From contig URTB01000015.1 of assembly GCA_900550595.1 (NCBI GenBank), positions 1-15,879 on the forward strand: 15,879 nt of DNA. Direction: 5' to 3'. Shown piece after piece: positions 1 to 15,879 of the stretch (position 1 is its first letter; the number at the start of each line of letters is the position of its first letter). The DNA comes from an uncultured Collinsella sp. GTDB lineage: Bacteria > Actinomycetota > Coriobacteriia > Coriobacteriales > Coriobacteriaceae. Under the pieces are notes generated by a model. It was not told the DNA's origin and searched no databases. It saw only the letters and a program-made list of their open reading frames with translations. A program made the position numbers and the translations under genes.

Positions 1-1116
<1,116 letters not shown>

Positions 1117-1171
1117 GGGGGCGGGCCTGACCGCTGTGAATTTCGCGTGCTCATCCTCATGGCCTCCTGAC

Positions 1172-1209
1172 CAAGGCGCCCGGCGAGTATGTGCTCGCCG
1201 GACGCCTTG
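1172..1209. repeat. GC-rich hairpin before the sensor operon
   Basis: Sixteen-base arms at 1172-1187 and 1194-1209 pair with one C-A mismatch around the loop TATGTG. No T-run follows on either strand. It sits between the GH1 palindrome and the start of the 7TM sensor gene, so it may act as a factor-assisted terminator or as a leader structure. The rest of 1117-1260 shows no gene that I recognise. Confidence 0.5.
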
Positions 1210-1260
1210 CCGTCTGCGGATTTTGGGACATGCGGCCCGCTTTTTCGACCCATCTGTCGG

Positions 1261-1266
1261 TACACT
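1261..1266 (+). promoter_or_regulatory. Possible -10 box of the sensor operon
   Basis: TACACT lies 9 bases before the ATG at 1276 and resembles a sigma-70 -10 element. Transcription would then begin around 1273, giving an almost leaderless mRNA. No convincing -35 box is seen at 16-18 bp upstream (the closest T-rich stretch is 1240-1246). Tentative. Confidence 0.3.
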
Positions 1267-1275
1267 AAAGGCACT

Positions 1276-3159: not shown

Positions 3160-3161
3160 CG

Positions 3162-4655
3162 ATGCAGATTTCGCTCATCCTTCCCCAAATCGTTGCGCTC
3201 GATGTTGTCTTTGCCCTGGCTGCGTGCCTGCAGACGATTCACGTCCCGCTCATCGCATCGCGCCGCTCGTCCTATAACCGTAATGTGATTTGCGTCTACG
3301 AGGCGAGCCTTGTGCTTCACCTGATGATTTCGGCGCTCATCTTATTCGCGTCGTCTGGCTCGTATTTGGTGGCACCGCTTGACGTTTGCGCCAGGGCAAT
3401 GGGCGGAGCGTTGTGGCTCAATGCCGCGATCTTTGCCTACGGCGTGGTACTTATGGTGCACTATCGTCGCCCCGTCATGCTGGTCGAGCTGCTGCTTGTT
3501 GTCGCCGTTACACCGCCGGTGGTTTTTGCCATGGGCTCGGCGTGGACCGTTGTCCTTATCGCAGAGGGAGCGTTCTTCCTGTTCCGTTCCATCGCGGCGC
3601 TCTTGATGGACGTCCGTAACCGCCAGGAGGATATCACCGCGTTCTCGACGATTGAAACCATCAACGTGATCCCCGTGGGCATCCTGTATCTGGACCCGAG
3701 GGGCCGTCCGCTGCTCATGAACCGCTGCATGCGCAAAAACCTCGTAGAGCTCCATATGCCCACCGACCTGGGCGATATGAGCAGTACGTGGAACGACCTT
3801 CGCAAACTCAGCATGCAAATGCCCGAAAGCAGTAGGAATCGTGTGCGGATTAACTTGGACCGTTTTGGTGAGGCTCGCGCGGTGGTCGAGATTTCTCCCG
3901 CCGAGATTCGCCTATTTGTGCACGACGAAGTTATGGTTTCGGGCCGCCTCTTTGAGCGCATTATTGGACTGGATGTGACGGAGTATGCGCATGCCCACGA
4001 CCGCCTGGCGCAAGCCAATCACCTGCTTGAGCTTGCGGGCAAAGAACTCCAGACCCAGATCGAAGAAGTCAAAAAAGTTGCCGACAATGCGGCCTACCTA
4101 CGTATGCGCGCCCGCGTTCACGATGTGATCGGGCAGCGCCTGTCCATTCTTCATCGCTATTTGGAGGAGGGGCGTCTGGACGATGAGTCGCTCGAGCAGA
4201 TTGACCCGTTGCTACGCTCAATTGCCGCCGATTTGCGCAGTGGCGGTGCCAGCGAGCCTGCAGAGCAGCTGGGTGATATCGTCCATGCTTTTGGCCTGGT
4301 GAGTGTGCAGATCGATGTCGAGGGTGTGCTGCCTGAGGACGCGCGTGTCGCCGCCGCATTTTTGCAGATTATCCGCGAGGCCTCGACCAATGCCACCAAG
4401 CATGCACAGGCGCATCGGGTCCACGTGCGCCTGTGGCAGGAGGGGACGGATGTTGGCACCGTCGCGCACATGACGATTTCTAACGACGGGTCCCCGGCCC
4501 CCGTATCGTATCGCGAGGGAACGGGTATCCCAGGTATGAGGCATGTCGCACAAGGTCTGGGTGGCAGCCTAGAGGTCCACGCCGCCCCGCCCTTTACGCT
4601 TGCGGTGTCCATTCCGCTTAACGCCAACGACACGCCCCAAAGGAGAAGCTCATGA
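3162..4655 (+). CDS. Membrane PAS sensor histidine kinase, HisKA_3 type
   Basis: 497 residues. Five or six membrane helices occupy about residues 5-148, a PAS-like domain about 163-275, a linker coiled coil about 276-312, then a HisKA_3 H-box RARVHDVIGQRLS with phospho-acceptor His320. The HATPase has an N-box REASTNATKHA (Asn410) and a G-box GTGIPGMRHVAQGLGG (about 453-468), so it should be active. It autophosphorylates and passes phosphate to the regulator encoded next. GGTGAG lies 5 nt before ATG 3162, inside the end of the preceding gene; a GTG at 3156 overlapping the upstream TGA is the alternative start. Coupling on both sides (ATGA overlap with the regulator) indicates one operon and equal expression. 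The signal is unknown. Confidence 0.88.
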   Translation: MQISLILPQIVALDVVFALAACLQTIHVPLIASRRSSYNRNVICVYEASLVLHLMISALILFASSGSYLVAPLDVCARAMGGALWLNAAIFAYGVVLMVHYRRPVMLVELLLVVAVTPPVVFAMGSAWTVVLIAEGAFFLFRSIAALLMDVRNRQEDITAFSTIETINVIPVGILYLDPRGRPLLMNRCMRKNLVELHMPTDLGDMSSTWNDLRKLSMQMPESSRNRVRINLDRFGEARAVVEISPAEIRLFVHDEVMVSGRLFERIIGLDVTEYAHAHDRLAQANHLLELAGKELQTQIEEVKKVADNAAYLRMRARVHDVIGQRLSILHRYLEEGRLDDESLEQIDPLLRSIAADLRSGGASEPAEQLGDIVHAFGLVSVQIDVEGVLPEDARVAAAFLQIIREASTNATKHAQAHRVHVRLWQEGTDVGTVAHMTISNDGSPAPVSYREGTGIPGMRHVAQGLGGSLEVHAAPPFTLAVSIPLNANDTPQRRSS

Positions 4656-5272
4656 TCCGCGTCCTTATAGTCGAAGACCAGGCCATCCTGCGCGAAAGCC
4701 TGGCGCGCTCCGTTGGCGACCAGCCCGATATGACCGTCGTCGCCGCGATCGCCGATGCCTCCGAGGCCTTGGGTGTCGCGCTCAAGGAGCGCCCTGACAT
4801 GATACTGATGGACGTGTGCACCGAACACGATTCAAACGGCATCGTGGCGGCGGCGCGCATCAAGGAGCAACTGCCCGAGTGTCGCATCATTATCATGACC
4901 GGCATGCCCGAGATCACCTTTGTCGATCAGGCCCGCGAGGCGGGCGTCGACAGCTTTGTGTACAAGAACGTCGGTATCGACGAGCTGTTCGCCGTGATGC
5001 GCTCTACGCTGGCGGGCTATTGCACGTTTCCCAAGCCGCCCGAGAGCATTTTTTCGGGTACGGCGGCACTCGACGATGTCGAGCTGTCGATTTTGCGCCT
5101 CGCCTGCGAGGGCAAGAGCCGCCGCGAGATCGCGGCCGAGCTGTTTATGAGTGAGGGCACCATCAAGCGCCGCATCTCGGAGATCCTGAGCAAGACCGGC
5201 TACGACAACATCATGCGTCTTGCCGTGCATGCGGTGACCGAAGGCAGCATCGTTCCCAACATGGAGCGCTAA
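4652..5272 (+). CDS. Response regulator, NarL/LuxR family
   Basis: 206 residues. Receiver domain at 1-120 with acidic pocket Glu8-Asp9, phospho-acceptor Asp54 (ILMDV), Thr83 and Lys105. The LuxR-type helix-turn-helix at about 137-200 (LACEGKSRREIAAELFMSEGTIKRRISEIL) binds DNA. The ATG overlaps the kinase TGA as ATGA, and AAAGGAG sits 6 nt before it. It is the output partner of the kinase just upstream. Its targets cannot be read from this window; self-regulation is common for the family. Nothing unusual in the key residues. Confidence 0.95.
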   Translation: MIRVLIVEDQAILRESLARSVGDQPDMTVVAAIADASEALGVALKERPDMILMDVCTEHDSNGIVAAARIKEQLPECRIIIMTGMPEITFVDQAREAGVDSFVYKNVGIDELFAVMRSTLAGYCTFPKPPESIFSGTAALDDVELSILRLACEGKSRREIAAELFMSEGTIKRRISEILSKTGYDNIMRLAVHAVTEGSIVPNMER

Positions 5273-5299
5273 CGCTCGTTGCGTATCGGCATAAAAACG

Positions 5300-5332
5300 A
5301 CGGGGCCGCAGGATCAACTCCTGCGGCCCCGT
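5300..5332 (-). terminator. Intrinsic terminator of the zinc-ribbon/lipoprotein operon
   Basis: A perfect 14-bp stem (ACGGGGCCGCAGGA with its complement) closes a 5-base loop. On the minus strand it is followed by CGTTTTTAT, the U-tract expected for the operon ending at 5382. It lies between converging genes, so it probably also stops transcription of the response regulator from the plus strand, where no U-tract is seen. Confidence 0.9.
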
Positions 5333-5381
5333 CTGGTGTGCGCGGATGTGTCCGCCAATCCGCGGCTGATGTTACGTGCCG

Positions 5382-6224
5382 TTACGCGATGGTTGCGGTG
5401 TAAGAGGCGACGTCCTCGTAGGAATCGGTCAGGTAGGCGTCGATGCCGATGGTCGTATTGACGAGGTCGTCAAGGCTGTCAAGCTCGCCGCTCGAGAACG
5501 TGAATTCCTCGGTGGCGTTGGTGCCGGGCATCAGGTGAGCCGAGAACCAGGGTTCCTTCATGGTGCCGTTGACGTTGGTCTTGCCGGAAGGAGCGTAGAA
5601 GGTCAGGTCCTTGTCGCTCTTGTTGGTGATGTTGACGACAAAGCCGATGTCGCCCCAGTCGTCCTTGAACTTCTCGGTGATGGTGATGGTGCACAGGTCG
5701 TCATCGGCGACGGTGACGGCGGGGGAGATTTCGATGCTCTGGACGTCGTCGTCTTCGACGGCCTCATCGATCTCTTCTTCCTTCTCGGCGTTCTCGCGAT
5801 CCTTCTTCACCGTACCGGACAGATCCTTGTCGGACTTCGTAAAGATAAGCTTGTCGCCTTCCACCTCCAGGACGAGCTTGTCGTCCTTGAGCTTCAGGTC
5901 GTGCGACTCATCTTCGGCGGTAATCGTTACGGTGGTGGCGTCCTTGGCCTCCCATTTCAGGTCGGCGACCTCAAGGAACATGTCGAGGACGCCCGTGCCG
6001 TCTTCGTCGAGGATCAGGATACAGTTGAGGCCCCACTCCTTGAGCATATCCATGTACTCATCGGTGAGCTCTTCGCCGTCCAAGGCTCCACCCGAGTACT
6101 GCCAGCTGCCGACGAAGTTGGCCTTGGGGTCTTTGCCGCCGCCGCTGCAGCCCGTCAGGGCAAAGGCGAGCGCCAAGATACATGTCAGGAATGCGAGCGC
6201 GGACTTTTTGAACGTTGTCTTCAT
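5382..6224 (-). CDS. Secreted lipoprotein, unknown function
   Basis: 280 residues from ATG 6224, chosen because AGGAGG lies 5 nt upstream; an in-frame ATG at 6239 would bury that ribosome site inside the gene. The signal peptide MKTTFKKSALAFLTC... ends in the lipobox LTGC, so the mature protein should be lipid-anchored outside the membrane. The N-terminal part (GSWQYSGGALDGEELTDEY, then beta-strand-rich sequence with ILDEDGTGVL) resembles lipocalin-like domains of small Actinomycetota and Firmicutes lipoproteins. A very acidic linker (KEEEIDEAVEDDD) leads to a second beta-rich domain resembling the DUF4352/Ig-like type. It is last in the zinc-ribbon operon, 80 bases after the SPFH gene. The ligand is unknown. 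Confidence 0.8.
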   Translation of the reverse strand: MKTTFKKSALAFLTCILALAFALTGCSGGGKDPKANFVGSWQYSGGALDGEELTDEYMDMLKEWGLNCILILDEDGTGVLDMFLEVADLKWEAKDATTVTITAEDESHDLKLKDDKLVLEVEGDKLIFTKSDKDLSGTVKKDRENAEKEEEIDEAVEDDDVQSIEISPAVTVADDDLCTITITEKFKDDWGDIGFVVNITNKSDKDLTFYAPSGKTNVNGTMKEPWFSAHLMPGTNATEEFTFSSGELDSLDDLVNTTIGIDAYLTDSYEDVASYTATIA

Positions 6225-6263
6225 GGTGTCCTCCTTCATCGAACGAAACCCATAGAAGCAAAT

Positions 6264-6285
6264 GCGGGGGTGGCGGATCCCCCGC
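6264..6285 (-). promoter_or_regulatory. Hairpin between SPFH and lipoprotein genes
   Basis: GCGGGGG (6264-6270) pairs with CCCCCGC (6279-6285) over an 8-base loop. On the minus strand it is followed by ATTTGCTTCT, a poor U-tract, so it may act as a partial terminator that lowers lipoprotein transcription relative to the upstream genes, or simply as an RNA processing or stability structure. Confidence 0.4.
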
Positions 6286-6304
6286 CAATTACCAGATAGA
6301 GGGG

Positions 6305-7540
6305 TTAGGGCCTGGGCGTTCCGCAGTTGCTGCAGAACTTGCCGACGTTTTCGCTACCGCAATTGGGGCAGAACCACTTGGCCGGTGCCGGGGCGGGTGC
6401 GGGGCTGCCGCACTCGGAGCAGAACTTGCCGGTGTTGGTGGCGCCGCAGCTGCAGGTCCATGCGCCGGCCGCAGGTACGGCAGCGGGTGCCGGTGCGGGG
6501 GCGGGAGCCGGCTGCGGGGCAGCCTGCTGCTGTGCCTGACCGGCGGCGAACAGCTGGCTAGCGTTCATGCCGCCCATGCCACCTGCCATGCCCATGCCCA
6601 TAAAGCCTGCCATCGCGCCGTTGGGGTTGGCCGCTGCCGCGCGCATCGCGTCGCTCTGGGCGCTGGCGATGTTGGCGGCCGCCATGGTGGGATCGCGCAT
6701 GACTGCGGCCTTCTGCAGGTCCTTGATCATCTGCTCGTCTTCTTGCGAGGCGGCGATGGAGTTGACGCCAAAGCTCACGATCTCGACGCCACGTAGGTCG
6801 CGCCAGTCGGCCGAGAGGACCTCGTTGAGCGCGCGGGCGAGCTCGGTGGTGTGACCGGGGATGGCGCTGTAGCGAATGCCCATTTCCGAGATCTTGGCAA
6901 AGGCGGGCTGCAGAGCGGTGAGCAGCTCGGACTTAAGCTGGCTGTCGATCTTATCGCGCGTGTAGCTATCGGTCACGTTGCCGCACACGTTGGTGTAGAA
7001 CAGCAGCGGGTTGGTGATACGGTACGAATACTCGCCGTTGCAGCGAACGGAGATGTCGACGTCCAGGCCAATGATGTTATCGACCACGCGGAAAGGCACG
7101 GGCGAGGCGGTGCCGTACTTGTTACCGACGATCTCCTTGGTGTTGATGAAGTAGACGCGCTGGTCCTTGCCTGCGTCGCCGCCAAAGGTAAAGCGGCTGC
7201 CGATATTGGCGAACGTCTCCTTGATGGAGTCGCCCAGGTTGCCGCTAAAGACGCTCGGCTCGCTGCCGGTGTCAAAGACGAACTCGCCGGGCTCCAGCGC
7301 GACCTCGATGATCTTGCCGTTTTGCACCACGAGCATGCCCTGGCCGTCGTTGACGGCGATGACGGAGCCGTTTGAGATGACGTTGTCCTCGCCGCGCGTG
7401 TTGGAGCTGCGGCCGCCGGTGCGCTTGCTGCCCTTGCAGGCCAAGACGTCAGCGGGCATCGATTCGCAATAGATAAATTCCTTCCACTGGTCGGCCATGA
7501 CGCCGCCGGCAGCGCCCAATCCAGCTTTCAAGAGTCCCAT
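6305..7540 (-). CDS. SPFH-domain protein with two C-terminal zinc ribbons (YdjI-like)
   Basis: 411 residues. About residues 15-280 form the SPFH/virion-core-protein-like domain (DQWKEFIYCESMPADVLACKG ... VPFRVVDNIIGLDVDISVRCNGEYSYRITNPLLFY), as in Bacillus subtilis YdjI. Then comes a Met/Gly/Ala-rich helical stretch, a Pro-Ala linker, and two zinc ribbons: CSCGATNTGKFCSECG and CPNCGSENVGKFCSNCG. SPFH proteins build oligomeric scaffolds at membranes; no transmembrane helix is obvious, so attachment probably needs a partner such as the YdjG-like protein encoded just upstream. AAAGGAAG precedes the ATG. In Bacillus the related genes sit with pspA; none is seen here. Family assignment is good; the cellular role in this organism is inferred. 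Confidence 0.88.
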   Translation of the reverse strand: MGLLKAGLGAAGGVMADQWKEFIYCESMPADVLACKGSKRTGGRSSNTRGEDNVISNGSVIAVNDGQGMLVVQNGKIIEVALEPGEFVFDTGSEPSVFSGNLGDSIKETFANIGSRFTFGGDAGKDQRVYFINTKEIVGNKYGTASPVPFRVVDNIIGLDVDISVRCNGEYSYRITNPLLFYTNVCGNVTDSYTRDKIDSQLKSELLTALQPAFAKISEMGIRYSAIPGHTTELARALNEVLSADWRDLRGVEIVSFGVNSIAASQEDEQMIKDLQKAAVMRDPTMAAANIASAQSDAMRAAAANPNGAMAGFMGMGMAGGMGGMNASQLFAAGQAQQQAAPQPAPAPAPAPAAVPAAGAWTCSCGATNTGKFCSECGSPAPAPAPAKWFCPNCGSENVGKFCSNCGTPRP

Positions 7541-7588
7541 GGTGATCTTCCTTTCTCGTCAAAGGCCGGGTGGTATTGGTCAGAATGG

Positions 7589-8911
7589 CTAATCGTCCTT
7601 GTTGTCCTTCATGACAACGGTGGTCTCGGTGTGGCTGAAGGTGTCGTGCTTCTCGGTCAGGTCGAGCTCGCCGCAGTAGCAATCGGCGTGGGTGGCCTCG
7701 TTGGCCGTCTTGAGCTGGCCCACCAGCAGCACGTCTGCGATGATCACGATGATCAGCGGCGCGACGATGTTGATGAGGATGCCCTCGACATCGAAGGTGA
7801 GGTAGTCCGGATTGAAGGCGTTCTCTCCCATAAAGAGGATCTGGGAGAGGACAAACCCGATCGCAAAGAACAGCACCGAGGCGATGGCGAGCTTGGGCTT
7901 GGAGCAGGGGAGCTCGCCGACCATGCGACCGGTCTGGCCGTTCATGGCAAACAGGTAACTCTTGCCGTTCCACGAGGTGGAGAGCATCCACACGGGGAAC
8001 AGGGCGTAGTCGCTGTCTTCCCAGGTGTAGTCGAGCTGCTTGCTTTCAACCGTGGCGTCGTCATACTCGTCGACGACGGTCTCGCGCAGGGCCGAAATCG
8101 TACTTTCTTCCATACGACGCTCGGCGCGCGCCTTGCAGGTTTTGCAATCCTCGTCGTAGCGGTTGGCGATGTAGCCGGGCATATAAGCGACCGAGAACGG
8201 GCGCAGCGCGTCGTAGTCAAACGGCTCGATGGCGTCCATATGGCCGTCGGGCATCTTGGACGATCCGTCGACGGGCACGCGCTCAAACGAGATATTTCCC
8301 TTGCGGTAGGCATCGTAGTGGTCGGTGGTCGTGACGGTGCGGTCGGATTCTTCGGTTACGGTCTCGTTGGTCGCATCAAAGTACACTTCGCCGTCCACGC
8401 GGGCGCCGTAGAGCCAAAACGGCACGTAAACGCCTTGGACCTCGTCGATGTGGTTGCCGGTGGCAAAGCTCTTGGGCAGCAGGATTTTGCCCTTGTAGTG
8501 GTCTTTGAGCGCGGCCATGACATCGTCGCGCCCGAGCTTAAACGGAATCACCAGGTCGGGTGAGAAATCGCCCGAGAGCTGTCCGGGTGCCACGGCAGAG
8601 TTGCCGCAGTATGGGCAGGTGGTGACGGCGACGGTGCCGTCCGAGACCAGCTCGGCACCGCACGACGAGCAGATGTAGCCGGCGTTTTGAGCCAGCTCCT
8701 GCACGGCATCGTCGACAGCAGGTTTGGGAGCCGCGGCTGCGGCATCGGCTTTGGCATCGGCCTTGTCCTGGCGCTCGCGATAGAGGGCCTCGACTTCTTC
8801 GACTTCAAAGCGCGAGTCGCAGTAGTCGCAGACGAGCTTTTGCTCGGCACTGGCAAAGTGAAGGGGGCCGCCACACGCGGGGCACTGATAGTTGACGCTC
8901 TCGAAGGCCAT
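7589..8911 (-). CDS. Zinc-ribbon membrane protein (YdjG-like)
   Basis: 440 residues. Two N-terminal zinc ribbons: CPACGG...CDYCDS (about 10-32) and CSSCGAEL...CPYCGN (about 81-103), separated by an Ala/Lys-rich linker. A long beta-rich domain follows (IPFKLGRDDVMAAL, YVPFWLYGARVDGEVYFDA, ALFPVWMLSTSWNGKSYLFAMNGQTG), then two membrane helices (about 345-365 and 380-403). This order matches TFIIB-type zinc-ribbon proteins of the YdjG group, which partner SPFH and PspA proteins in Bacillus. An extra CKTCKARAERRM near residue 255 might add a metal ligand. AAAGGA precedes the ATG by 6 nt; the next gene follows after 48 bases. It probably anchors the SPFH protein to the membrane. Confidence 0.82.
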   Translation of the reverse strand: MAFESVNYQCPACGGPLHFASAEQKLVCDYCDSRFEVEEVEALYRERQDKADAKADAAAAAPKPAVDDAVQELAQNAGYICSSCGAELVSDGTVAVTTCPYCGNSAVAPGQLSGDFSPDLVIPFKLGRDDVMAALKDHYKGKILLPKSFATGNHIDEVQGVYVPFWLYGARVDGEVYFDATNETVTEESDRTVTTTDHYDAYRKGNISFERVPVDGSSKMPDGHMDAIEPFDYDALRPFSVAYMPGYIANRYDEDCKTCKARAERRMEESTISALRETVVDEYDDATVESKQLDYTWEDSDYALFPVWMLSTSWNGKSYLFAMNGQTGRMVGELPCSKPKLAIASVLFFAIGFVLSQILFMGENAFNPDYLTFDVEGILINIVAPLIIVIIADVLLVGQLKTANEATHADCYCGELDLTEKHDTFSHTETTVVMKDNKDD

Positions 8912-8935
8912 GATCGGTCCTTTCGCTGCCGGAGG

Positions 8936-9673
8936 CTATGCGCCGATGGCGCCGCCGCAGTATTCGCAGCGCCCGCTGGCATCGGGAATGGTGGTTGCAC
9001 CGCAGAAGGGGCAGGTGACCGCGGTCTTGGGGGCCTTGGCGGCCACGACGCTGTCGCGCGTCTCCTGGCGCAGCTGCACCAGCGCGTCGCGGACCTCGGT
9101 TGCTTGGCGCTTGGCCTCGCGGTATTCGATGGAACCGCGCTGATCGATGGTGGAGTCGTTCACGCGTAGGTTGATCTCGGTAAAGTACGGCGTGTTGACA
9201 TGGATGGTCAGATTGAAGTCGTAATCCAGGTCATAACGCGGCGGGTTGTAGCTCTCGCGTTCGCCGTCCTTGGTCTCGCGATAGATCTCGGTGCGATGCT
9301 CGTCGATATCCATGTCGCAGCCAAGTACCTGCGAGAACTCGATGATGTCGGGATTGGCGTCACGCCAGCGGCTCTGCGAAGTGATGATCAGCAGGCCCGC
9401 GTCTTCGTCGAGCATGATGTTGGTGCGCCCGGCAGAAAGCGTGCGCGTGGGGTTGAACGACGCCAGGCGCTCGGCATTGGCCTCTCGGTAGGCGAGCTGC
9501 TCACGGATATCGTTCGCGGTGCTGGAACGATATCCGCCAAAGAAGGGGGAGAGCTTGCCGACGCACTCTTTGCACAGGTAGCCTTCGTTGATCTTGGTCT
9601 TCCCCAAAAGCCCCAGCTCGGTACCGCAAATCGCGCACTCTTTCTTCTCGAACATCTTGTCAAAGAAGCCCAT
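8936..9673 (-). CDS. DUF4428 protein with N- and C-terminal zinc ribbons
   Basis: 245 residues. The N-terminus KKECAICGTELGLLGKTKINEGYLCKEC (Cys13, 16, 34, 37) is a DUF4428-type metal knuckle. The middle (NIMLDEDAGLLIITSQSRW...IIEFSQVLGCDMDIDE) is a beta-rich region usual in this family. The C-terminus CPFCGATTIPDASGRCEYCGG is a second zinc ribbon. No membrane helix. First gene of the minus-strand operon; GGGAGG lies 5 nt before the ATG, and the YdjG-like gene begins 24 bases after its end. Function unknown; the shared ribbons suggest the three products assemble together. Confidence 0.82.
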   Translation of the reverse strand: MGFFDKMFEKKECAICGTELGLLGKTKINEGYLCKECVGKLSPFFGGYRSSTANDIREQLAYREANAERLASFNPTRTLSAGRTNIMLDEDAGLLIITSQSRWRDANPDIIEFSQVLGCDMDIDEHRTEIYRETKDGERESYNPPRYDLDYDFNLTIHVNTPYFTEINLRVNDSTIDQRGSIEYREAKRQATEVRDALVQLRQETRDSVVAAKAPKTAVTCPFCGATTIPDASGRCEYCGGAIGA

Positions 9674-9702
9674 GGCTGCCTCCCATCAACAGGTAGCGTG
9701 TG

Positions 9703-9780
9703 TCACTTTTGATGATGGGGGAGTGCACGATCTTTCACGATACCCAGACGGCTCAAGGAGCCTCCACAACTGGGACACAT
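9703..9780 (-). other. Micro-ORF with a CPSCGG knuckle before the zinc-ribbon operon
   Basis: A 25-codon frame, MCPSCGGSLSRLGIVKDRALPHHQK, ends 29 bases before the DUF4428 start. Half a zinc knuckle right upstream of three zinc-ribbon genes is suggestive, but no ribosome site is seen before the ATG, and the frame may be a remnant of a longer gene or part of a dispersed repeat. The direct repeat CACGAT-CTTT-CACGAT (about 9725-9740) lies within it. Confidence 0.25.
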
Positions 9781-9791
9781 GGCCCATTTTT

Positions 9792-9826
9792 GACTGGTCA
9801 TTGGGGACGTACTTAAATGAGTGGTC
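9792..9826 (+). repeat. REP-like 35-bp unit, copy 1
   Basis: GACTGGTCATTGGGGACGTA... matches the unit read on the minus strand at 11732-11698 at 30 of 35 positions. Its ends are imperfect inverted copies of GACTAGTC. The ATG used by the ROK frame (9817) lies within this repeat, and ROK-like sequence begins where the repeat ends. Confidence 0.75.
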
Positions 9827-10539
9827 TCTACGAGGGAGACGTCGCGGGAACGATCCATCGCGGCGGTGCGCTCACGTTTATGGACGGCTGCCCACTGGGA
9901 AAGCTCATGCGCGAGGCGCTGGGGGTGCCGGTTGCCGTCAATAACGACGGTAAGTGCTGTGCACTCGGTGAGTATGCGGCTGGCGCTCTGCGTGGGACGC
10001 GTTTTGGCGTGGTGCTCGCTATCGGCACGGGCATCGGCGGCGGTATCGTCATCGACGGCAAGGTCCTGCGCGGCGCGCACTGCTTTGCAGGCGAGTTCAG
10101 CTTCTTGTGCAATGATGTCACGACTTCCGCGAGCACGGAAAACTCCTTTGCGGGTTCGGGCGGTTGGCGTGCGCTCCGTGATGCCGCCATTGCCGAGAAG
10201 GGCCTGCCTGCGGGTTCTCCGGTGGACGGCCGCCGCGTCTTTGAGTGGATCGCGGATGGCGACATGGCGGCGCAGCGCGCGCTCGACCGCTACGCTCGCG
10301 CCTTTGACGGACAGCTCATCAACCTGCAGGCCGTGCTCGACCCCGAGGTCTTTGTGATCGCAGGCGGCATCTCGTGCCATCCCGAGCTCGTCGATGCCCT
10401 GCGTGCGCAGATGCCGCTGGCCCTCGCGGGTTACGAAGGGACCCTTGCCGGCATTCCTGTGCCGCAGATAAAGGTGGCCGAGCTCGGCAACGACGCCAAC
10501 CTTTACGGTGCTGTCCAGGAGGCCATGCGCCTGGTGTAG
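9817..10539 (+). pseudogene. ROK-family sugar kinase, N-terminus missing
   Basis: The 240-residue frame matches the later part of ROK proteins: IHRGGALTFMDGCPLG, the catalytic-Asp segment VAVNNDGKCCALGEY (Asp44), the ROK signature AIGTGIGGGIVIDGKVLRGAH with FAGEFSF, and the C-terminal VFVIAGGIS and LGNDANLYGAV. About 70-80 N-terminal residues with the DxGGT phosphate-binding motif are absent, and no frame between 9674 and 9816 restores them. The ATG comes from a REP-like repeat, and no clear ribosome site precedes it. The remaining frame is undamaged, so the loss may be recent or the fragment may still be made, but without the ATP-binding lobe start it should not be an active kinase. The usual ROK zinc cluster (CxCG...C) is also not seen. 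A 17-bp terminator follows. Confidence 0.8.
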
Positions 10540-10582
10540 CGCGAGTCAAACGAGGCTGTCGAAAAAGATAAAGGCCGGTGTG

Positions 10583-10625
10583 AACCGCCCCCATTTCCTT
10601 AGCACAGGAAATGGGGGCGGTTTAA
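10583..10625 (+). terminator. Intrinsic terminator after the ROK remnant
   Basis: A perfect 17-bp stem (10583-10599 with 10606-10622, AACCGCCCCCATTTCCT and complement) with a 6-base loop, followed by TAAT. The U-tract is short but the stem is very stable. It separates the ROK remnant from pyrE. Between here and the pyrE start I see no convincing gene. Confidence 0.8.
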
Positions 10626-10771
10626 TCTCGTGCCCCTTTTTAATCCGCTCGGATTCTTGATGAGGGAGTTTGCCATGTTAACCCCATTGTTCAGAAAACC
10701 ATTGCCCCTGACAAAGCCTTTACTGAATGCCGTGGCCTCAAAGCGCGCCCGCATCGACGCCCTGCCTGCGC

Positions 10772-10777
10772 TAAACT
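10772..10777 (+). promoter_or_regulatory. Possible -10 box of pyrE
   Basis: TAAACT lies 35 bases before the pyrE ATG, leaving a short leader with GAGAGGAG as ribosome site. No good -35 element was found at 16-18 bp upstream. Tentative. Confidence 0.3.
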
Positions 10778-10811
10778 GGAAGGCACGTACGCGATTACGA
10801 GAGGAGCCCGC

Positions 10812-11495
10812 ATGGAGGCTTACAAGCAAGAGTTCATCAAGTTTATGGTTGAGTCCGACGTCCTTAAGTTCGGCAGCTTTACGCTCAAGAGCGGCCGTCA
10901 GTCTCCGTTCTTTATGAATGCCGGCGCTTACGTGACGGGCTATCAGCTCAAGAAGCTGGGCGAGTATTACGCCCAGGCCATCCACGATAACTTTGGCGAC
11001 GATTTTGATGTACTGTTTGGACCGGCCTACAAGGGTATTCCGCTGGCCGTCGTGACCGCGATTGCCTACCACGAGCTGTACGGCAAGGAGGTCAAGTATT
11101 GCTGCGACCGCAAGGAGGCCAAGGACCACGGCGCCGACAAGGGCAACCTGCTGGGCTACGAGCCCCAGGACGGCGACCGCGTGGTCATGGTCGAGGATGT
11201 CACCACCAGCGGCAAGTCTATCGACGAGACCTATCCCAAGGTTAAGGCTGCTGCCGACGTCGAAATCAAGGGCCTGATCGTGTCCCTCAACCGCATGGAG
11301 GTCGGCAAGGGCGGCGTGACCACCGCACAGAAGGAGATCGAGGCCAAGTACGGTTTCCCCGTCGCGAGCATCGTTTCCATGGCCGAGGTCGTCGAGACCC
11401 TCTACAACCACGAGATCGATGGCAAGGTCGTCATCGATGACGAGCTCAAGGCCGCCATCGACGCCTACTACGAGCAGTACGGGGCTCGGGAGTAG
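10812..11495 (+). CDS. pyrE: Orotate phosphoribosyltransferase
   Basis: 227 residues, normal family length. It joins orotate and PRPP to form orotidine 5'-monophosphate, the fifth step of de novo pyrimidine synthesis, in the cytoplasm. Visible motifs: FTLKSGRQSPFF (orotate site, 23-34), GPAYKGI (70-76), the flexible catalytic loop DRKEAKDHGADKGNLLG (99-115) and the PRPP-binding loop VVMVEDVTTSGKS (124-136). GAGGAG precedes the ATG by about 6 nt. It stands alone here rather than with other pyr genes. The TAG stop is followed after 3 nt by a structured repeat element. Confidence 0.97.
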   Translation: MEAYKQEFIKFMVESDVLKFGSFTLKSGRQSPFFMNAGAYVTGYQLKKLGEYYAQAIHDNFGDDFDVLFGPAYKGIPLAVVTAIAYHELYGKEVKYCCDRKEAKDHGADKGNLLGYEPQDGDRVVMVEDVTTSGKSIDETYPKVKAAADVEIKGLIVSLNRMEVGKGGVTTAQKEIEAKYGFPVASIVSMAEVVETLYNHEIDGKVVIDDELKAAIDAYYEQYGARE

Positions 11496-11498
11496 GTA

Positions 11499-11670
11499 GT
11501 TACGCGGGTTTACCAACCCGCGTAACCAGTTGACGCTGCAAGCCCGCCAGAGCGGCAATCTGCCTTTCAGCTCCGGCGGCATGACCAGAAGGTCAATGCC
11601 GCCTCGTTTCAAGGCACCTTGCTCGCTCTGACGGGCTTTCGCTGTCGTTGCCAAAACATCGGCGTTGCCG
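11499..11670 (+). repeat. Structured element (candidate RNA), copy A
   Basis: Three helices. P1: GTTACGCGGGTT/AACCCGCGTAAC with a TACC loop (11499-11526). P2: AAGCCCG-C-CAGAGCG-GCAA (from 11540) with TTGC-T-CGCTCTG-A-CGGGCTT (to 11638), one mismatch and one bulged T. P3 inside P2: GGCGGCAT...ATGCCGCC capped by GACC-AGAA-GGTC with a bulged A (11575-11603). Conserved single-stranded blocks shared with copy B include CAGTTGACGCTGCAA, CGGCAATCTG, CACCTTGCTCGCT and CGGCGTTGCC. It starts 3 nt after the pyrE TAG and runs into a REP-like palindrome. No protein is encoded. The right boundary is set by where similarity to copy B changes into the REP. Confidence 0.85.
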
Positions 11671-11673
11671 TAG

Positions 11674-11732
11674 TAGTCATTGGGGACGTTCTTGTTTGAC
11701 TAGTCGTTTAAGAACGTCCCCAATGACTAGTC
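11674..11732. repeat. REP-like palindrome, copy 2
   Basis: Perfect 20-bp arms, TAGTCATTGGGGACGTTCTT (11674-11693) and its complement (11710-11729), enclose a 16-base loop holding GACTAGTC. Read on the minus strand, 11732-11698 is the 35-bp unit also seen at 9792-9826. A G precedes the left arm (GTAG), the tetranucleotide typical of REPs mobilised by RAYT transposases; no such gene is in the window. Confidence 0.85.
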
Positions 11733-11734
11733 AG

Positions 11735-11806
11735 AAATGAGCGTGGATAATCTCCCGTTTTTGGCCCCCGTGTGGACTCAAAGTGGGAGATTATCCACGC
11801 TCGTTT
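11735..11806. repeat. Long palindrome flanking fic, left copy
   Basis: Arms of 22 bases with core GAGCGTGGATAATCTCCC (11739-11756) and complement (11785-11802) enclose a 28-base spacer. The same arms and a similar spacer (TTTTGGCC...CTCAAAGT) recur at 13189-13256 on the other side of the Fic gene. It lies 22 bases after the Fic stop and could end its transcript as a hairpin, although no strong U-tract is present for the minus strand. Confidence 0.88.
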
Positions 11807-11828
11807 TAATATGGCTGGGCTGCGGTGC

Positions 11829-13001
11829 CTATCTAATCGGCTCAGCGTCTTCCCTGAGAATCGAAAGATACTCTTCATACCCGTACTGTCGGTATCTCTG
11901 TCTTGACTCGTCGAGTGGACGGAGGATACCCAATTCTTCGAATGATTTGACGAGCGAGCTCGCGGTGCTCCTACCGATATCGAGTCGGGCAGCGATAAAT
12001 GCGGTGTCGAGGATGGGATGCTCTTCAAGAAGGCTCAGCAGCCTTTGTCCGTTTGCGGCAGTCCTTCCGAGATTTTCGGTAATAGCTGCCGTGGAACGGT
12101 TATGGAGGTCAACAAGGTTTTTTAAAGACCCTACCGAGTCCTTCGCACTCTCAAGAAGACTGGCGCAGAAAAACTCTATCCATTCCTCGTAAGTGCCTCG
12201 CTCCCTTACGGATGCGAGTTGCCGGTAGTACTCGCTTCGATTTTTCTTGAACTGGAACGATGGGTAGAACAAGCAAGAATGAAGAACGCCATCATTGATG
12301 AGCATAAGTGTAATGAGAAGCCTGCCCAGGCGACCGTTTCCGTCTAGGAATGGATGGGCAGTTTCAAATTGGTAATGGACGAGCGCCGCCCGCACGATCG
12401 GATCCATTTCGACTTGAGGCTCATTGATAAATCGTTCGAGGTCCTGGAGCGTGTTGCTCAAATCTTCAATGTTTGGAGGGACGAACGATGCAGTTGCAAT
12501 GGTGCAGCCTGAAGGGCCAATCCAGTTTTGTGAGGAGCGCAGCTCGCCTGGATTCTTCTCCGTTCCGCGCACTCCGTCCAGCAGGACCGCATGAACCTGC
12601 CTGAGAAGCCTCGTACACAAGGGCATCTTTTTGAGCAGTTCTACGCCGCGGTCGACAGCACGGACATAATTCACGACATCTGCGACATCTTTATGATGGA
12701 GTTGGGTTTGCGATGGACTAAGTAGGTCGTCAAACGTGCACTGGGTTCCCTCAATTTGCGAAGAAAGGAGTGCTTCTTTGCGCACATACATTGTCAGATA
12801 CATGTCGGCGTTGGGAACAAAGTAGAGCATGCCTTCAAGCTCTCCAAGCTTTCGTGAGCATGTGGAAAGCGTGCGATAGGTTTCCTCAGTGAGGTTTAGC
12901 TGCCTCAATGATTGCAAGGGCGTTGGCAAAAACGAATAGTAAGCCAATTTCCCCGATAGATTATTGCGGAGCGTTCCCTGGCCGTTCTCCTCGATTTGCA
13001 T
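11829..13001 (-). CDS. Fic-family AMPylase with inhibitory motif and winged helix
   Basis: 390 residues from ATG 13001, chosen because GGAGGG lies just upstream; the ATG at 13013 is four codons earlier and poorly placed. Fic proteins transfer AMP (or another nucleotide part) to a target side chain. The core motif HPFLDGNGRLGR (216-227) is complete, with catalytic His216. The flap region QNWIGPSG...FVPP is present. SSQIEG (80-85) fits the (S/T)xxxE(G/N) inhibitory helix, placed N-terminal to the core as in class II Fic proteins, so activity should be self-restrained. Residues about 325-375 form a winged-helix-like segment (FIAARLDIGRSTASSLVKSFEELGIL). Base composition is visibly less GC-rich than the neighbours, and two long palindromes flank it, suggesting acquired DNA. 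Target unknown. Confidence 0.92.
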   Translation of the reverse strand: MQIEENGQGTLRNNLSGKLAYYSFLPTPLQSLRQLNLTEETYRTLSTCSRKLGELEGMLYFVPNADMYLTMYVRKEALLSSQIEGTQCTFDDLLSPSQTQLHHKDVADVVNYVRAVDRGVELLKKMPLCTRLLRQVHAVLLDGVRGTEKNPGELRSSQNWIGPSGCTIATASFVPPNIEDLSNTLQDLERFINEPQVEMDPIVRAALVHYQFETAHPFLDGNGRLGRLLITLMLINDGVLHSCLFYPSFQFKKNRSEYYRQLASVRERGTYEEWIEFFCASLLESAKDSVGSLKNLVDLHNRSTAAITENLGRTAANGQRLLSLLEEHPILDTAFIAARLDIGRSTASSLVKSFEELGILRPLDESRQRYRQYGYEEYLSILREDAEPIR

Positions 13002-13030
13002 CGCGCCCTCCATATCTTTAGTGCCGGAAA

Positions 13031-13130
13031 CTAGCTATTAGGCTAATCATATCAATTCTAATAACGAGTTTATGGCGAAAATAGTTATTAGAGTCGATTT
13101 GAATAATCTAATGACGAGAAGTCGTTATTG
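13031..13130 (-). promoter_or_regulatory. Alternating operator-like sites and promoter of fic
   Basis: Five copies of a CTAATAACGAG-like motif alternate in orientation: 13031-13041 (-), 13058-13068 (+), 13082-13091 (-), 13108-13118 (+), 13119-13130 (-). Copies 2 and 3 form the inverted repeat TCTAATAAC/GTTATTAGA. On the minus strand TATGAT (13051-13046) is a good -10 box, so copies 1 and 2 flank it on either side. This is the layout of an autoregulated promoter; the winged helix of the Fic protein is the obvious candidate binder, by inference. Confidence 0.6.
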
Positions 13131-13188
13131 CTTTGGTGCAAGGTGGTCGAGTGGTCCCTCGGGCGCAGAGGAAAACGGAGCATTCAAC

Positions 13189-13256
13189 ACGAGCGTGGAT
13201 AATCTCCCGGTTTTGGCCTGTGTGCGGGCTCAAAGTGGGAGATTATCCACGCTCGT
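13189..13256. repeat. Long palindrome flanking fic, right copy
   Basis: Perfect 20-bp arms, ACGAGCGTGGATAATCTCCC (13189-13208) and its complement (13237-13256), with a 28-base spacer like that of the left copy. A further single arm fragment, ATCCACGCTCGT, occurs at 13274-13285, ending 2 bases before the stop codon of the SIS-domain gene. Between 13131 and 13188 nothing recognisable is seen. Confidence 0.88.
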
Positions 13257-13287
13257 TAGATATTCGTCCGAAAATCCACGCTCGTCG

Positions 13288-13851
13288 CTACTTGAGCCCG
13301 GGCAGACGGGTGTAGGGAAACGAGCGCTCCAGGAATTCGGAGCGGCGGGCGTAGTCTTTGGCGAGGTAGCTGCTGTAGAGCGAATCGAGCACGTATTGCA
13401 CGGCGATGTGGCTGGCGAACTGCGTGATGCGATGCGTCATACTCTCGTGGTCACTCACCGTGAGGTAGGCGGCAAAGCCAGGGTGAATGCGAGCGCAATA
13501 AGGCGTGCCGATGACGATGACCGGGACATGCCGGCTGCTGAGAATCGGCAAGATGTCCTTGAGGTTGGGGGCAAGGCCGCTGTAGGAGATGACGATCGCC
13601 ACATGGTCGGTGCCCGAGGCGAGCGCCGTACGCACCTGGGCCTCGCCACCGTCGTGGCACGTCGCGCTTTTACCGGCGGAGAGCAAGCGATCACGGAACA
13701 TTCCCGCTGGATAGAGGTTGTGCGAGCCTGTGTAGATGTCGACCTGTCGGGCGTTCGCGATGAGCTTGGCGGCGTGGTCAAGCTGCGTGGGGTCGAGCAG
13801 CTCCTGCGTTTCGGCCAGCGTGGTCTGGTAGAGCCCCTCCATGCGTTCCAT
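13288..13851 (-). pseudogene. MurR/RpiR-type regulator reduced to its SIS domain
   Basis: 187 residues. RpiR regulators are about 270-290 long, with an N-terminal helix-turn-helix and a C-terminal SIS domain that senses phosphosugars. Here only the linker and SIS domain remain: VDIYTGSHNLYPAGMFRDRLLSAG, then HVAIVISYSGLAPNLKDILPIL and VPVIVIGTPYCARIH. Upstream, in frame, AEYRLQV (a typical continuation of the HTH end) is readable but a TAA at 13875-13873 precedes it, and no HTH is found in any frame up to the PTS promoter. The ribosome site is poor. It may be a dead gene or make a SIS-only protein. It lies divergent from the EIIA gene, whose control it may once have served. Confidence 0.75.
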
Positions 13852-13948
13852 AACCTGCAGGCGATACTCGGCTTATCGACCCGCGATGCAAAGGAGATGC
13901 TCATCCCAAGAGCGCTACCGGGAAGGGCTTGCGATTCGAGCCCTCACC

Positions 13949-13977
13949 TTAGCAATTTGATCATTTGGCACTATAAT
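13949..13977 (+). promoter_or_regulatory. Promoter of the PTS EIIA gene
   Basis: TATAAT (13972-13977) is a perfect -10 box, and TTAGCA (13949-13954) stands 17 bp before it as a 4-of-6 match to the -35 consensus. Transcription should begin near 13984, giving a leader of about 43 nt with the GAGGAG ribosome site. Confidence 0.65.
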
Positions 13978-14026
13978 CACCATAGGCATGCGCATAACGT
14001 TGCGCTTAATCAAGAGGAGAAAACAT

Positions 14027-14563
14027 ATGGGTCTGTTTGACATGTTTAAGAAGAAGGCTGAGCCCGCGGCAGCTGCTGCTCCGGCCTCCATCTCTGCTTC
14101 TGCTGGCGCCGACGTGCTGTGCTCGCCTGTCACGGGCAAGGTCATCAAGATGGCCGACGTGCCCGATCCCGTCTTTGGTGGCGAGGTTCTGGGCAAGGGC
14201 TGCGCTGTGTGGCCCGAGGACGACCTGGTCTACGCTCCCTGCGACGGCAAGGTGACCGTCACCATGGGTCACGCCGTGGGCCTGCAGTCCGATAGCGGCA
14301 TCGAGGTTCTGGTACACGTTGGCGTCGATACCGTCAACATGAACGGCGACGGCTTCGAGGGCTTCGTCAAGGCCGACGACGTCGTGAAGGCTGGCCAGCC
14401 CTTGCTCAAGATTGACCGCGCCAAGATCGCTGCCGCCGGTTACAAGGACTGCGTCGTCGTGGCCGTGTCCAACACCGCCGAGTTCGCCGACGTCGAGCTC
14501 GCCGTCGAGGCCGAGTCTGCCGTCGCCGCCGGTGACGCCATCTTTAGGGTCGTCCGCAAGTAG
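14027..14563 (+). CDS. crr: PTS EIIA component, glucose type
   Basis: 178 residues. It takes phosphate from HPr and passes it to an EIIB domain of a glucose/beta-glucoside-class PTS permease, in the cytoplasm. The two active-site histidines are in GHAVGL (His82) and VLVHVGVDTV (His97, the phosphorylated one), 15 residues apart as His75 and His90 in E. coli EIIA-Glc. An amphipathic N-terminus MGLFDMFKKK and Ala-rich linker precede the domain, as in free-standing Crr proteins. AGAGGAG precedes the ATG at 14027; an earlier in-frame ATG at 13988 has no such site. It is monocistronic, between its own promoter and a terminator. It could serve the permease feeding the 6-phospho-beta-glucosidase. The symbol is by family, not by proven orthology. 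Confidence 0.92.
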   Translation: MGLFDMFKKKAEPAAAAAPASISASAGADVLCSPVTGKVIKMADVPDPVFGGEVLGKGCAVWPEDDLVYAPCDGKVTVTMGHAVGLQSDSGIEVLVHVGVDTVNMNGDGFEGFVKADDVVKAGQPLLKIDRAKIAAAGYKDCVVVAVSNTAEFADVELAVEAESAVAAGDAIFRVVRK

Positions 14564-14586
14564 TCTGCGGCAACATAAGGATGTGC

Positions 14587-14619
14587 AAGGGTGGTCGGGT
14601 TATCCGGCCACCCTTTTTT
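14587..14619 (+). terminator. Intrinsic terminator of the EIIA gene
   Basis: AAGGGTGGTCGG pairs with CCGGCCACCCTT (12 bp, one G-T pair) over a 5-base loop, and TTTT follows. It lies 23 bases after the stop. From here to 14796 no gene is seen; TAATAT at 14729-14734 might be the -10 box of the following lipoprotein gene, but no good -35 box accompanies it. Confidence 0.92.
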
Positions 14620-14796
14620 AATAGGCTAAACAGGTGCATTTTATTGCAGGGGGCTTGTTTTACGGGCCATTCGCTCGTCAAATTGAGCCGCCTGCGCTTT
14701 TGCGACGCAGGGGGTTGGGCCGGGCCGCTAATATGGACTTGCTGTTACGACGTGCGCTGCGCAGGGAACGCGGCGCCGCTTGTTTGGAGGAATGTC

Positions 14797-15354
14797 ATGA
14801 AAAAGAAGCTGCTGCTTGCGCCTCTGATGGCCGCCCTGGTCGCGTGCGTGGTTTTGCTTTCAGGCTGCGGAGGGCCTTCGGTGGAAGAGCTCATCACCAA
14901 CGACCTTACGAGCCAGTTTGACGAGATCAAGAACGGCGGCGATGACTTCCTTGCCGGTCTGGAAGAGGCTTCGGGCGACGAGTTTGAGCAACTGGGTATC
15001 GATCCCAAGGAGTACGCCAAGAGCTATCTCGAGGGTTTTGATTACAAGATCGGCGATGTGACGGTCGATGAGGACAAGGGCACTGCGACCGCCGAGGTTA
15101 CCATCACCTGCAAGTCCATGAATAAGATCGTCGAAGATTTCGCCACCCAGTATCAGGAGAAGGCCGCCGCGCTCGATACGATGCCTTCCGAGGACGACCT
15201 GTACAAGATGGCCGGCCAGGTCATGGTCGACGTGACCAAGGCCGCTAAGACCAAGGACACCAAGGTCACCTTTAAGTATTCCGCCAACGAGGATAACGAG
15301 TGGTCTGCCGACGATTCCGCAACCACCGAGATGATGAATGCGATGATGAGCTAG
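14797..15354 (+). CDS. Small secreted lipoprotein, unknown function
   Basis: 185 residues. The signal peptide MKKKLLLAPLMAALVACVVLLSGC ends in the lipobox LSGC (Cys24), so it should be anchored on the outer face of the membrane. The mature part alternates helical stretches (VEELITNDLTSQFDEIKNG) and beta-rich sequence (GDVTVDEDKGTATAEVTITC), resembling DUF5105/DUF4878-type lipoproteins; I cannot place it more closely. GGAGG lies 7 nt before ATG 14797. The longer in-frame start at 14581 lies before the EIIA terminator hairpin and is rejected. A structured repeat begins 2 nt after the TAG stop. Confidence 0.85.
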   Translation: MKKKLLLAPLMAALVACVVLLSGCGGPSVEELITNDLTSQFDEIKNGGDDFLAGLEEASGDEFEQLGIDPKEYAKSYLEGFDYKIGDVTVDEDKGTATAEVTITCKSMNKIVEDFATQYQEKAAALDTMPSEDDLYKMAGQVMVDVTKAAKTKDTKVTFKYSANEDNEWSADDSATTEMMNAMMS

Positions 15355-15356
15355 GG

Positions 15357-15528
15357 GGTTACGCGGTTCTACGAACCGCGTAACCAGTTGACGCTGCAAA
15401 CGCCCCTAAGCGGCAATCTGACGTTCAATTTCAAGGGCGCGACCAGAAGGTCAGCGCCCTTTCATTTCACGTCACCTTGCTCGCTTAGGGGCGTTTTCGC
15501 TGACCGTCCTCTACCTGCGGCGTTGCCA
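15357..15528 (+). repeat. Structured element (candidate RNA), copy B
   Basis: Same architecture as the copy after pyrE. P1: GGTTACGCGGTTC/GAACCGCGTAACC with a TAC loop (15357-15385). P2: AAACGCCCCTAAGCG-GCAA (15398-15416) with TTGC-T-CGCTTAGGGGCGTTT (15477-15496), fully paired but for the same bulged T. P3: AAGGGCGC/GCGCCCTT capped by GACC-AGAA-GGTC with the same bulged A (15433-15461). The junction blocks are nearly identical to copy A although the stems differ. P2 ends in TTTT. It is followed by TAGTCATTGGGG (15533-15544), the left half of the REP-like repeat. Confidence 0.85.
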
Positions 15529-15532
15529 TGGT

Positions 15533-15544
15533 AGTCATTGGGGC
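15533..15544 (+). repeat. REP-like repeat, partial copy 3
   Basis: TAGTCATTGGGG, preceded by G (GTAG), matches the left end of the palindrome at 11674. Afterwards the sequence diverges to CGGCACTTGGGGACACTCC, which has a second TTGGGGAC block. The right arm is missing, so this copy cannot fold like copy 2. Confidence 0.6.
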
Positions 15545-15574
15545 GGCACTTGGGGACACTCCTTTGGTGCGGGG

Positions 15575-15611
15575 GGGCAGCTAAAAGAGTCCCGTCCCAC
15601 ATTAGCTGCCC
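15575..15611. repeat. Inverted repeat after the HAD gene
   Basis: GGGCAGCTAA (15575-15584) and its perfect complement TTAGCTGCCC (15602-15611) enclose 17 bases. It lies 17 bases beyond the HAD stop on the minus strand. No U-tract follows, so it is more likely another dispersed palindrome than an intrinsic terminator, though it may do both. Confidence 0.6.
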
Positions 15612-15628
15612 GTGGGAGGGATGAGCGG

Positions 15629-15879
15629 TTACTCGCCCAGAATCAGCGCCGCGAGCTCTGCCTGGCTATCCACCACGTAGTCGGCGCCGGCGGCCTCCAG
15701 CTCTGCGCGGCCGCGGAAGCCCCAGCTGACGCCCGCGCTCTTAAGGCCGGCGTTGTGGCCGGTCAGGATATCGACATTGGAATCGCCCACATAGAGCGTG
15801 GTTGCCGGATCGGCGCCCAGCTCCTCCATCACATGCAGCGTGACGGGTGCTTCGGGCTTGGGCGGAAACGCATCGACAC
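15629..15879 (-). CDS. HAD-superfamily phosphatase, phosphoglycolate-phosphatase-like (5' partial)
   Basis: The C-terminal 83 residues are in the window (frame from 15877); the start lies beyond the right edge. FPPKPEAPVTLHVMEELGA holds the motif III lysine, and LYVGDSNVDILTGHNAG is motif IV with its metal-binding acidic residues. The ending GVSWGFRGRAELEAAGADYVVDSQAELAALI is typical of Gph-like HAD phosphatases. The nucleophile Asp motif is outside the window. Substrate cannot be told from this part; phosphoglycolate or another small phosphate ester is likely. The reading frame is open at the edge, so the GTG/ATG codons near 15830 are internal. Confidence 0.9.
   Translation of the reverse strand, partial: VDAFPPKPEAPVTLHVMEELGADPATTLYVGDSNVDILTGHNAGLKSAGVSWGFRGRAELEAAGADYVVDSQAELAALILGE

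Follow-up and report, generated by a model that had tools for sequence, protein, structure and literature searches.

A structured palindromic repeat adjoining gene 3' ends in Collinsella and related bacteria

Positions 1–15,879 of the contig URTB01000015.1 of an uncultured Collinsella sp. (assembly GCA_900550595.1), hereafter called the window, contain two copies, A and B, of a strongly folding element, and with them raise the question of whether such an element serves the transcripts that it adjoins or is a piece of DNA that propagates itself. We found that the two belong to a family of repeats whose first hairpin, P1, adjoins the 3' end of a gene in the sense orientation and whose large hairpin—formed by the helices P2 and P3—folds better, and with a lean in its mismatches, on the strand opposite to the upstream gene. 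We judge the chances to be somewhat better than even that this element is a non-autonomous mobile palindromic repeat of the order to which Collinsella belongs, resembling the repetitive extragenic palindromes (REPs) or the miniature inverted-repeat transposable elements (MITEs).

A sequence-only reading of the window had described two structured copies with conserved junctions and covarying stems, which pattern it took for a selected structure, either RNA or single-stranded DNA, that it could not match to a named family. Both copies are where that reading had placed them, their folded parts being those delimited in Table 1, with 112/145 letters identical upon alignment. The minimum free energies (MFEs) of –85.3 kcal/mol for copy A and –88.5 kcal/mol for copy B (z values of –10.3 and –12.4) are far beyond those of shuffled sequences, none of 200 of which equalled them. 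On the RNAalifold structure of the alignment A2, changes on both sides of a pair with pairing retained numbered two in P1, eight in P2, and five in P3; the two and the five agree with the earlier count, whereas its five for P2, and hence its total of 12, become eight and 15. The single position unpaired in only one copy, a C-A in copy A, was confirmed, and a single change was one-sided (G-T versus A-T).

The covariation was then quantified in an alignment of 23 copies, comprising the two of the window and 21 from the nearest genome, G001. Among the 55 pairs, 32 exhibited two-sided changes; 96.3% of the stem cells were paired, as opposed to 33–41% when the partners were slid; and the covariation score of 0.454 was reached by none of 500 shuffles (mean, 0.149) and fell to 0.053–0.100 upon sliding the partners by one to three columns. 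A measure of further pair types, in contrast, was only weakly above the shuffles, 47/500 of which attained it. Bulges, internal loops, and junctions were constant among the copies while the stem letters varied. At the purC gene, moreover, where from the sequences the copies look shared by descent, paired changes occur stepwise—for example, from C-G to T-A in P1—in an alignment of five rows, two of which are the identical copy of G143. The structure and the covariation thus stand, but the stem differences are independent events only in part, because at one gene end different stem types are present across strains of the C. aerofaciens complex, which difference looks like the replacement of whole units of a dispersed repeat.

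The family extends well beyond the window. A blastn search with copy A recovered many further copies in G001, and the covariance-model search that the sequence-only reading had proposed (model R1, E ≤ 0.001) gave matches in 36 of 43 genomes of the genus, with 26–40 matches in 21 of these genomes, 2–14 in nine, one in six, and none in seven, the true copy numbers being lower than these counts since R1 may match the reverse strand of one palindrome as well. In the class, with no more than 16 candidates scored in each genome, 55/197 genomes matched, all from one order and confined to the family labels f1, f3, and f5—the last being probably the Eggerthellaceae, and f3 contributing single matches in three genomes. 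In the phylum 15/396 genomes matched, all of f1 or f5 and thus of that same order, though with no more than seven candidates scored in each genome weak relatives could escape. Named records with matches included strains of C. aerofaciens, C. tanakaei An791 and, weakly, Slackia isoflavoniconvertens. Among plasmids a single record matched copy A by blastn, an 899,693-base C. aerofaciens replicon with matches in 10 places; among 50,697 phage records there was no match to copy A, and of nine pattern matches in viral contigs the covariance model confirmed none. Rfam yielded no match at the gathering threshold in the window, nor any that coincided with an element in 15 loci of divergent copies—where the matches were RNase P, signal recognition particle (SRP), and tRNA genes only—or in 12 further loci; matches below that threshold, mostly to animal and plant microRNA families, were rejected as palindrome artefacts. 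Since we also recognised no description of the element in the literature searched, we consider it, as far as these searches go, a real and widespread structured repeat without a name.

Full copies are mostly 145–148 nt long with two hairpins, and those of f5 retain that length although most of their stem letters differ. The common frame consists of the gene 3' end, P1, a linker close to YCGACGCTGC, the large hairpin—sometimes much shortened—the box TCGCTG, and a tail. Of 16 irregular matches inspected by eye, about 10 had P1 and the linker followed by a reduced or almost missing middle hairpin and an end resembling TCGCTG (the tail being recognisable in some); two had lost the far side, three were full copies with insertions, and one was a different hairpin array. 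Because copies with a nearly absent large hairpin retain P1, the linker, and the end, the position behind genes does not require the large hairpin. A pattern for the short form matched 19/197 genomes of the class, several outside f1 and f5, which matches look like chance. The box is itself a landing site: an identical end of an IS110-family insertion sequence follows exactly after TCGCT in seven loci (L047, at 9271–10678, and L017, L019, L032, L041, L044, and L122) and again in L270. The open reading frame (ORF) of the insertion in L047, the sole one read, matches PF01548 and PF02371, and an annotated IS110 transposase lies behind the tyrS copy of the replicon just mentioned (NZ_OY725717).

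The position relative to genes is narrow. We reduced the 123 copies having at least 400 nt upstream to 70 distinct sites (upstream flanks less than 80% alike) and located stop codons by ORF scans, a simple gene finder being unreliable in the GC-rich G107. In 51 of the 70 sites an open sense frame of 60 codons or more stops at –6 to +1 of the P1 start (46 sites) or at exactly +15, within the P1 loop (five sites). This stop window was chosen after an earlier look at the data, but the control with random positions in the same loci used the identical window and gave 527/14,000 (3.8%). At the opposite end of the element, antisense frames gave 9/70, and another repeat of these genomes (GTCATTGGGGACG plus the form GTCG) 0/67, which control is REP-like and often behind an element, hence not unbiased. 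Among the 19 sites lacking such a stop are nested copies (L007, L008), read-through in a carA-like gene (L144, L151), and copies behind RNA genes—one 7 nt behind the Rfam match of an SRP RNA (L158) and one, weak and truncated, 1 nt behind that of an RNase P RNA (L148)—while the remaining 13 fall into none of these classes; a check of 14 loci whose copies lack a stop codon found no tRNA or tmRNA gene. In the annotation of NZ_OY725717, all six copies examined begin between a 1-nt overlap with and a 3-nt gap from the end of the upstream gene, these genes being tyrS, a 3-deoxy-D-arabino-heptulosonate 7-phosphate (DAHP) synthase gene, a short-chain dehydrogenase/reductase (SDR) gene, queA, a hexose kinase gene, and lysS. 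In f5 the upstream genes presumably include secY, purC, carA, sigA, and tsf. Many of the upstream genes look like core genes. The matches listed for G107 and G125 fit a single strand switch along the contig in 29/31 and 29/30 instances, which regularity may reflect gene orientation alone.

Two observations belong beside these. The reading frame of the carA-like gene continues through the element and thereby gains some 50 codons and more (L144, L151/L234, L159), in three genomes of different genera. NZ_OY725717, designated plasmid 6 of C. aerofaciens, bears tyrS, lysS, and queA, and may be a piece of chromosome.

At fixed gene ends the element turns over. At the end of the phosphoribosyltransferase gene upstream of copy A, which we take to be pyrE, P1 or a remnant was seen by eye at the stop codon in 19/19 loci of the C. 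aerofaciens complex (L031–L048, L066; two being truncated at the edge of a contig) and in 0/17 of other Collinsella and relatives (L049–L065), with stem types varying between strains. The lipoprotein-like gene upstream of copy B had a copy in 15/16 rows of the complex (several of which are the same G001 site), of several types and lacking in L048. At a third gene, 21 loci of the complex (L368–L388), likewise sorted by eye, comprised three full elements of two types, four large hairpins without P1, one partly deleted element, 11 P1-like remnants leading into another palindrome, and two loci with neither element nor remnant but with a normal terminator. The large hairpins lacking P1, similar-looking in L369, L370, L376, and L388, stand directly after the stop codon; two strains without that hairpin have an empty-looking allele between CCCC repeats. 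Older units with a newer one inside or beside them also occur, the nesting at one gene end being partial. A survey of purC and secY in 60-genome family samples (with matches in 51 and 59 genomes, and 30 loci fetched for each) revealed an element directly behind purC in six loci (L274–L276, L278, L285, L290; one degenerate and one interrupted) and directly behind secY in three (L304, L322, L325), four other model matches being located elsewhere within the fetched loci. The junction points differ slightly, and the elements are present in some f5 genera and absent from others; they look like separate arrivals.

To learn which strand folds, we took 184 model-aligned matches, from which 124 full copies (112 unique) and, after thinning at 95%, 33 Collinsella and 47 other copies resulted. 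The RNA MFE of the large hairpin was lower on the strand opposite to the upstream gene in 33/33 and 45/47 of these, by a mean of 8.0 and 12.8 kcal/mol, respectively; with DNA parameters that strand was favoured in 121/124 unthinned copies, with one against. The helix mismatches, as read on the strand of the gene, were 76 A-C versus 26 G-U, and in 40 distinct hairpins (similarity below 80%, with four carA loci excluded) 39 versus 13, with 18 hairpins leaning to A-C and three to G-U (sign test, 0.0015); that excess came almost entirely from the 31 non-Collinsella hairpins, the nine of Collinsella having five A-C and four G-U. We reason that deamination, if it acted on the coding strand, would push this bias the opposite way. 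Read on the opposite strand, most of the copies shown have tandem G·A mismatches in place of the T·C/T·C loops and C(UUnn)G in place of the nnAA loop. Because both the fold energy and the mismatches of the large hairpin favour the strand opposite to the gene, a plain RNA of the 3' untranslated region (3'UTR) is not the simplest reading.

The spread, the nesting, and the turnover together suggest mobility. Under the reading that we favour, a non-autonomous mobile palindromic repeat, copies would spread through a process akin to transposition, acting on the folded strand that lies opposite the upstream gene, and would either land at gene 3' ends or survive only there. The docking at gene 3' ends, those of RNase P and SRP RNA included, the presence of elements at purC and secY in some f5 genera and their absence in others, the strand asymmetry, and the insertion of an IS110-family element after TCGCT also speak for it. 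The features recognised would be the hairpin shape, the tandem G·A mismatches, and the junctions, and it is because these would be what is recognised that the stem letters could drift in pairs. Several results weigh against this reading. In a scan with the model over the Y1-transposase loci, a partner of the REP-associated tyrosine transposase (RAYT) type was rejected, only 2/40 of those loci having matches; of ten genomes outside the genus with 16–41 matches each, four (G107, G154, G143, and G201) have no Y1_Tnp match. Within the genus a link between Y1_Tnp and copy number is suggestive, the six of 42 genomes that lack Y1_Tnp having 0–1 model matches, but the Y1-positive G027 and G040 have none, and the link is broken in those other genera. 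The one close pair compared (L002 with and L260 without the element) disclosed neither a clean insertion nor a target duplication, the element and the repeat that follows having taken the place of the native 3' region along with the terminator there. The scattered occurrence at purC and secY may come from the loss of ancestral copies, and P1 is without the strand bias of the large hairpin, having ten G-U and four A-C on the strand of the gene.

The foremost alternative, a possibility of clearly lower probability, is a functional 3'-end element maintained by selection directly behind the gene, where it would terminate, protect, or tune the upstream transcript. The strict position and the sense orientation in 51/70 sites speak for such a role, as do the upstream genes, which often look like core genes and by annotation include tyrS, queA, lysS, and others; the paired changes at the shared purC site; the absence, where the element is present, of the ordinary terminator of a related strain, as in L002 versus L260; and the reported stalling of ribosomes in E. 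coli by REPs near stop codons (PMC12306157). Yet a transcript element should not have its large hairpin fold worse on the strand of the gene in every thinned Collinsella copy and in all but two of the others, nor be complete in only 3/21 related strains at one gene; reading of the sequence reveals no U-run behind the hairpins, some copies are almost without the large hairpin, and the carA-like gene of three genomes reads through the element in frame.

We consider it unlikely that the family is a mobile element recognising gene 3' ends as such—stop codons in the case of mRNAs, and likewise the ends of the genes for SRP RNA and RNase P RNA—and being recognised itself via the folded strand opposite to the gene, possibly with RNA as the template for joining at gene or transcript ends. 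Still more doubtful is that the paired changes arose mainly through DNA processes, such as template switching within the palindrome or the exchange of whole units, with little selection on shape: the variety of stem types that close strains show at a single gene end, the nested units, and a count of further pair types that does not stand out clearly from shuffles would fit, but template switching, we reason, would erase the bulges and loops, which with the junctions are fixed, and neither the one-strand lean of the mismatches in the 40 distinct hairpins nor the stepwise changes at purC is in keeping with such an origin. Least probable is an RNA-templated joining in the manner of a short interspersed nuclear element (SINE), in which an opposite-strand RNA would be copied, from P1, onto a free 3' end at the end of the gene: though that strand is the better folder, and P1—its 3' end—is the gene-joined side in the copies inspected, including those behind RNA genes, an mRNA does not ordinarily terminate at its stop codon, reverse-transcriptase genes (PF00078, scored for presence) occur in only 12/42 genomes of the genus and are lacking in many copy-rich ones (among them G003, G004, G007, and G008), so that such a partner was rejected, and of the 16 irregular copies about 10 are shortened in the middle with both sides kept while only two lose the far side.

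Table 1. Parts of the two copies in the window and the stop codons before them.
Feature	Position	Strand	Remarks
TAG stop, upstream phosphoribosyltransferase gene (ORF 10812–11495)	11493–11495	+	3 nt before copy A; PF00156 match
Copy A, folded part	11499–11644	+	followed by less conserved tail
Copy A, P1 hairpin	11499–11526	+	28 nt
Copy A, linker	11527–11539	+	13 nt; terminates in GACGCTGC
Copy A, large hairpin	11540–11638	+	99 nt, P2 with P3 on top; opposite strand folds better
Copy A, TCGCTG box	11639–11644	+	elsewhere, IS110-family element directly behind its TCGCT
Copy A, tail	11645–11669	+	less conserved; right border not fixed
TAG stop, upstream lipoprotein-like gene	15352–15354	+	3 nt before copy B
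Copy B, folded part	15358–15502	+	followed by less conserved tail
Copy B, P1 hairpin	15358–15384	+	27 nt
Copy B, linker	15385–15397	+	13 nt; terminates in GACGCTGC
Copy B, large hairpin	15398–15496	+	99 nt, P2 and P3
Copy B, TCGCTG box	15497–15502	+
Copy B, tail	15503–15529	+	less conserved; right border not fixed

Other repeats lie near copy A. Two 67-nt palindromes (GAGCGTGGATAATCTCCC...), at 11739–11805 and 13191–13257 and 91% identical, bracket a gene of the Fic/DOC family (11829–13013, minus strand), and another dispersed repeat, with GTCATTGGGGACGT hairpins, is present at 11670–11732 and 9797–9826 and in many Collinsella loci, often directly behind the element.

The gut commonly harbours Collinsella and its relatives, many of whose genomes contain some 20 or more genes that run straight into the element at their ends. 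If the element is mobile, this choice of gene ends would be an unusual targeting and a natural safe harbour, one already used by an IS110-family element; if it acts on transcripts, many genes would share one 3'-end part. The strand asymmetry furnishes a directly testable prediction of which nucleic acid folds.

Among known systems, attC sites also lie behind genes, fold as one-strand hairpins of variable length, and are targets of some IS1111-family elements; the present element differs in being dispersed behind core-looking genes, and no cassette array of it was observed, although integrases were not searched for. A regulatory RNA of the 3'UTR would place the strand of the gene under pairing constraint, toward which strand P1 alone leans and the large hairpin does not. 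The Collinsella-1 RNA (RF01700), listed for Actinobacteria and human gut (PMC2864571), gave no match at the gathering threshold in the window and in the 15 loci with divergent copies. With MITE-like repeats and the enterobacterial RU elements—non-coding repeats of about 100–170 bp, between and also inside genes (PMC2759123)—the element shares its small size, its lack of coding capacity, and its many dispersed copies, the in-gene case being the carA-like gene; it differs in being bound to gene 3' ends in one orientation, and neither an autonomous partner, looked for in the Y1 loci and among reverse-transcriptase genes scored for presence, nor a target duplication, looked for in the one close pair, was found. 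Membership among the REPs and the bacterial interspersed mosaic elements (BIMEs) fails because of the unit size (about 146 nt with two hairpins, versus 20–40 bp; PMC3733652), the tag (no fixed GTAG or CGTC before P1, where the letters vary by eye), and the RAYT linkage, seen in only 2/40 Y1 loci and with copy-rich genomes devoid of Y1. GTAG precedes P1 in some copies only, there overlapping the stop codon, and GTAG REPs often provide the TAG stop of neighbouring genes (PMC3733652). The likeness to the REPs lies in the dispersed intergenic palindromes; in the position by stop codons, near which 260/496 E. coli REPs have been proposed to act and within 15 nt of which REPs are reported to stall ribosomes (PMC12306157, the former after earlier work); and in being a target of the IS110 family, as the REPs are of its member IS621 (PMC11208160).

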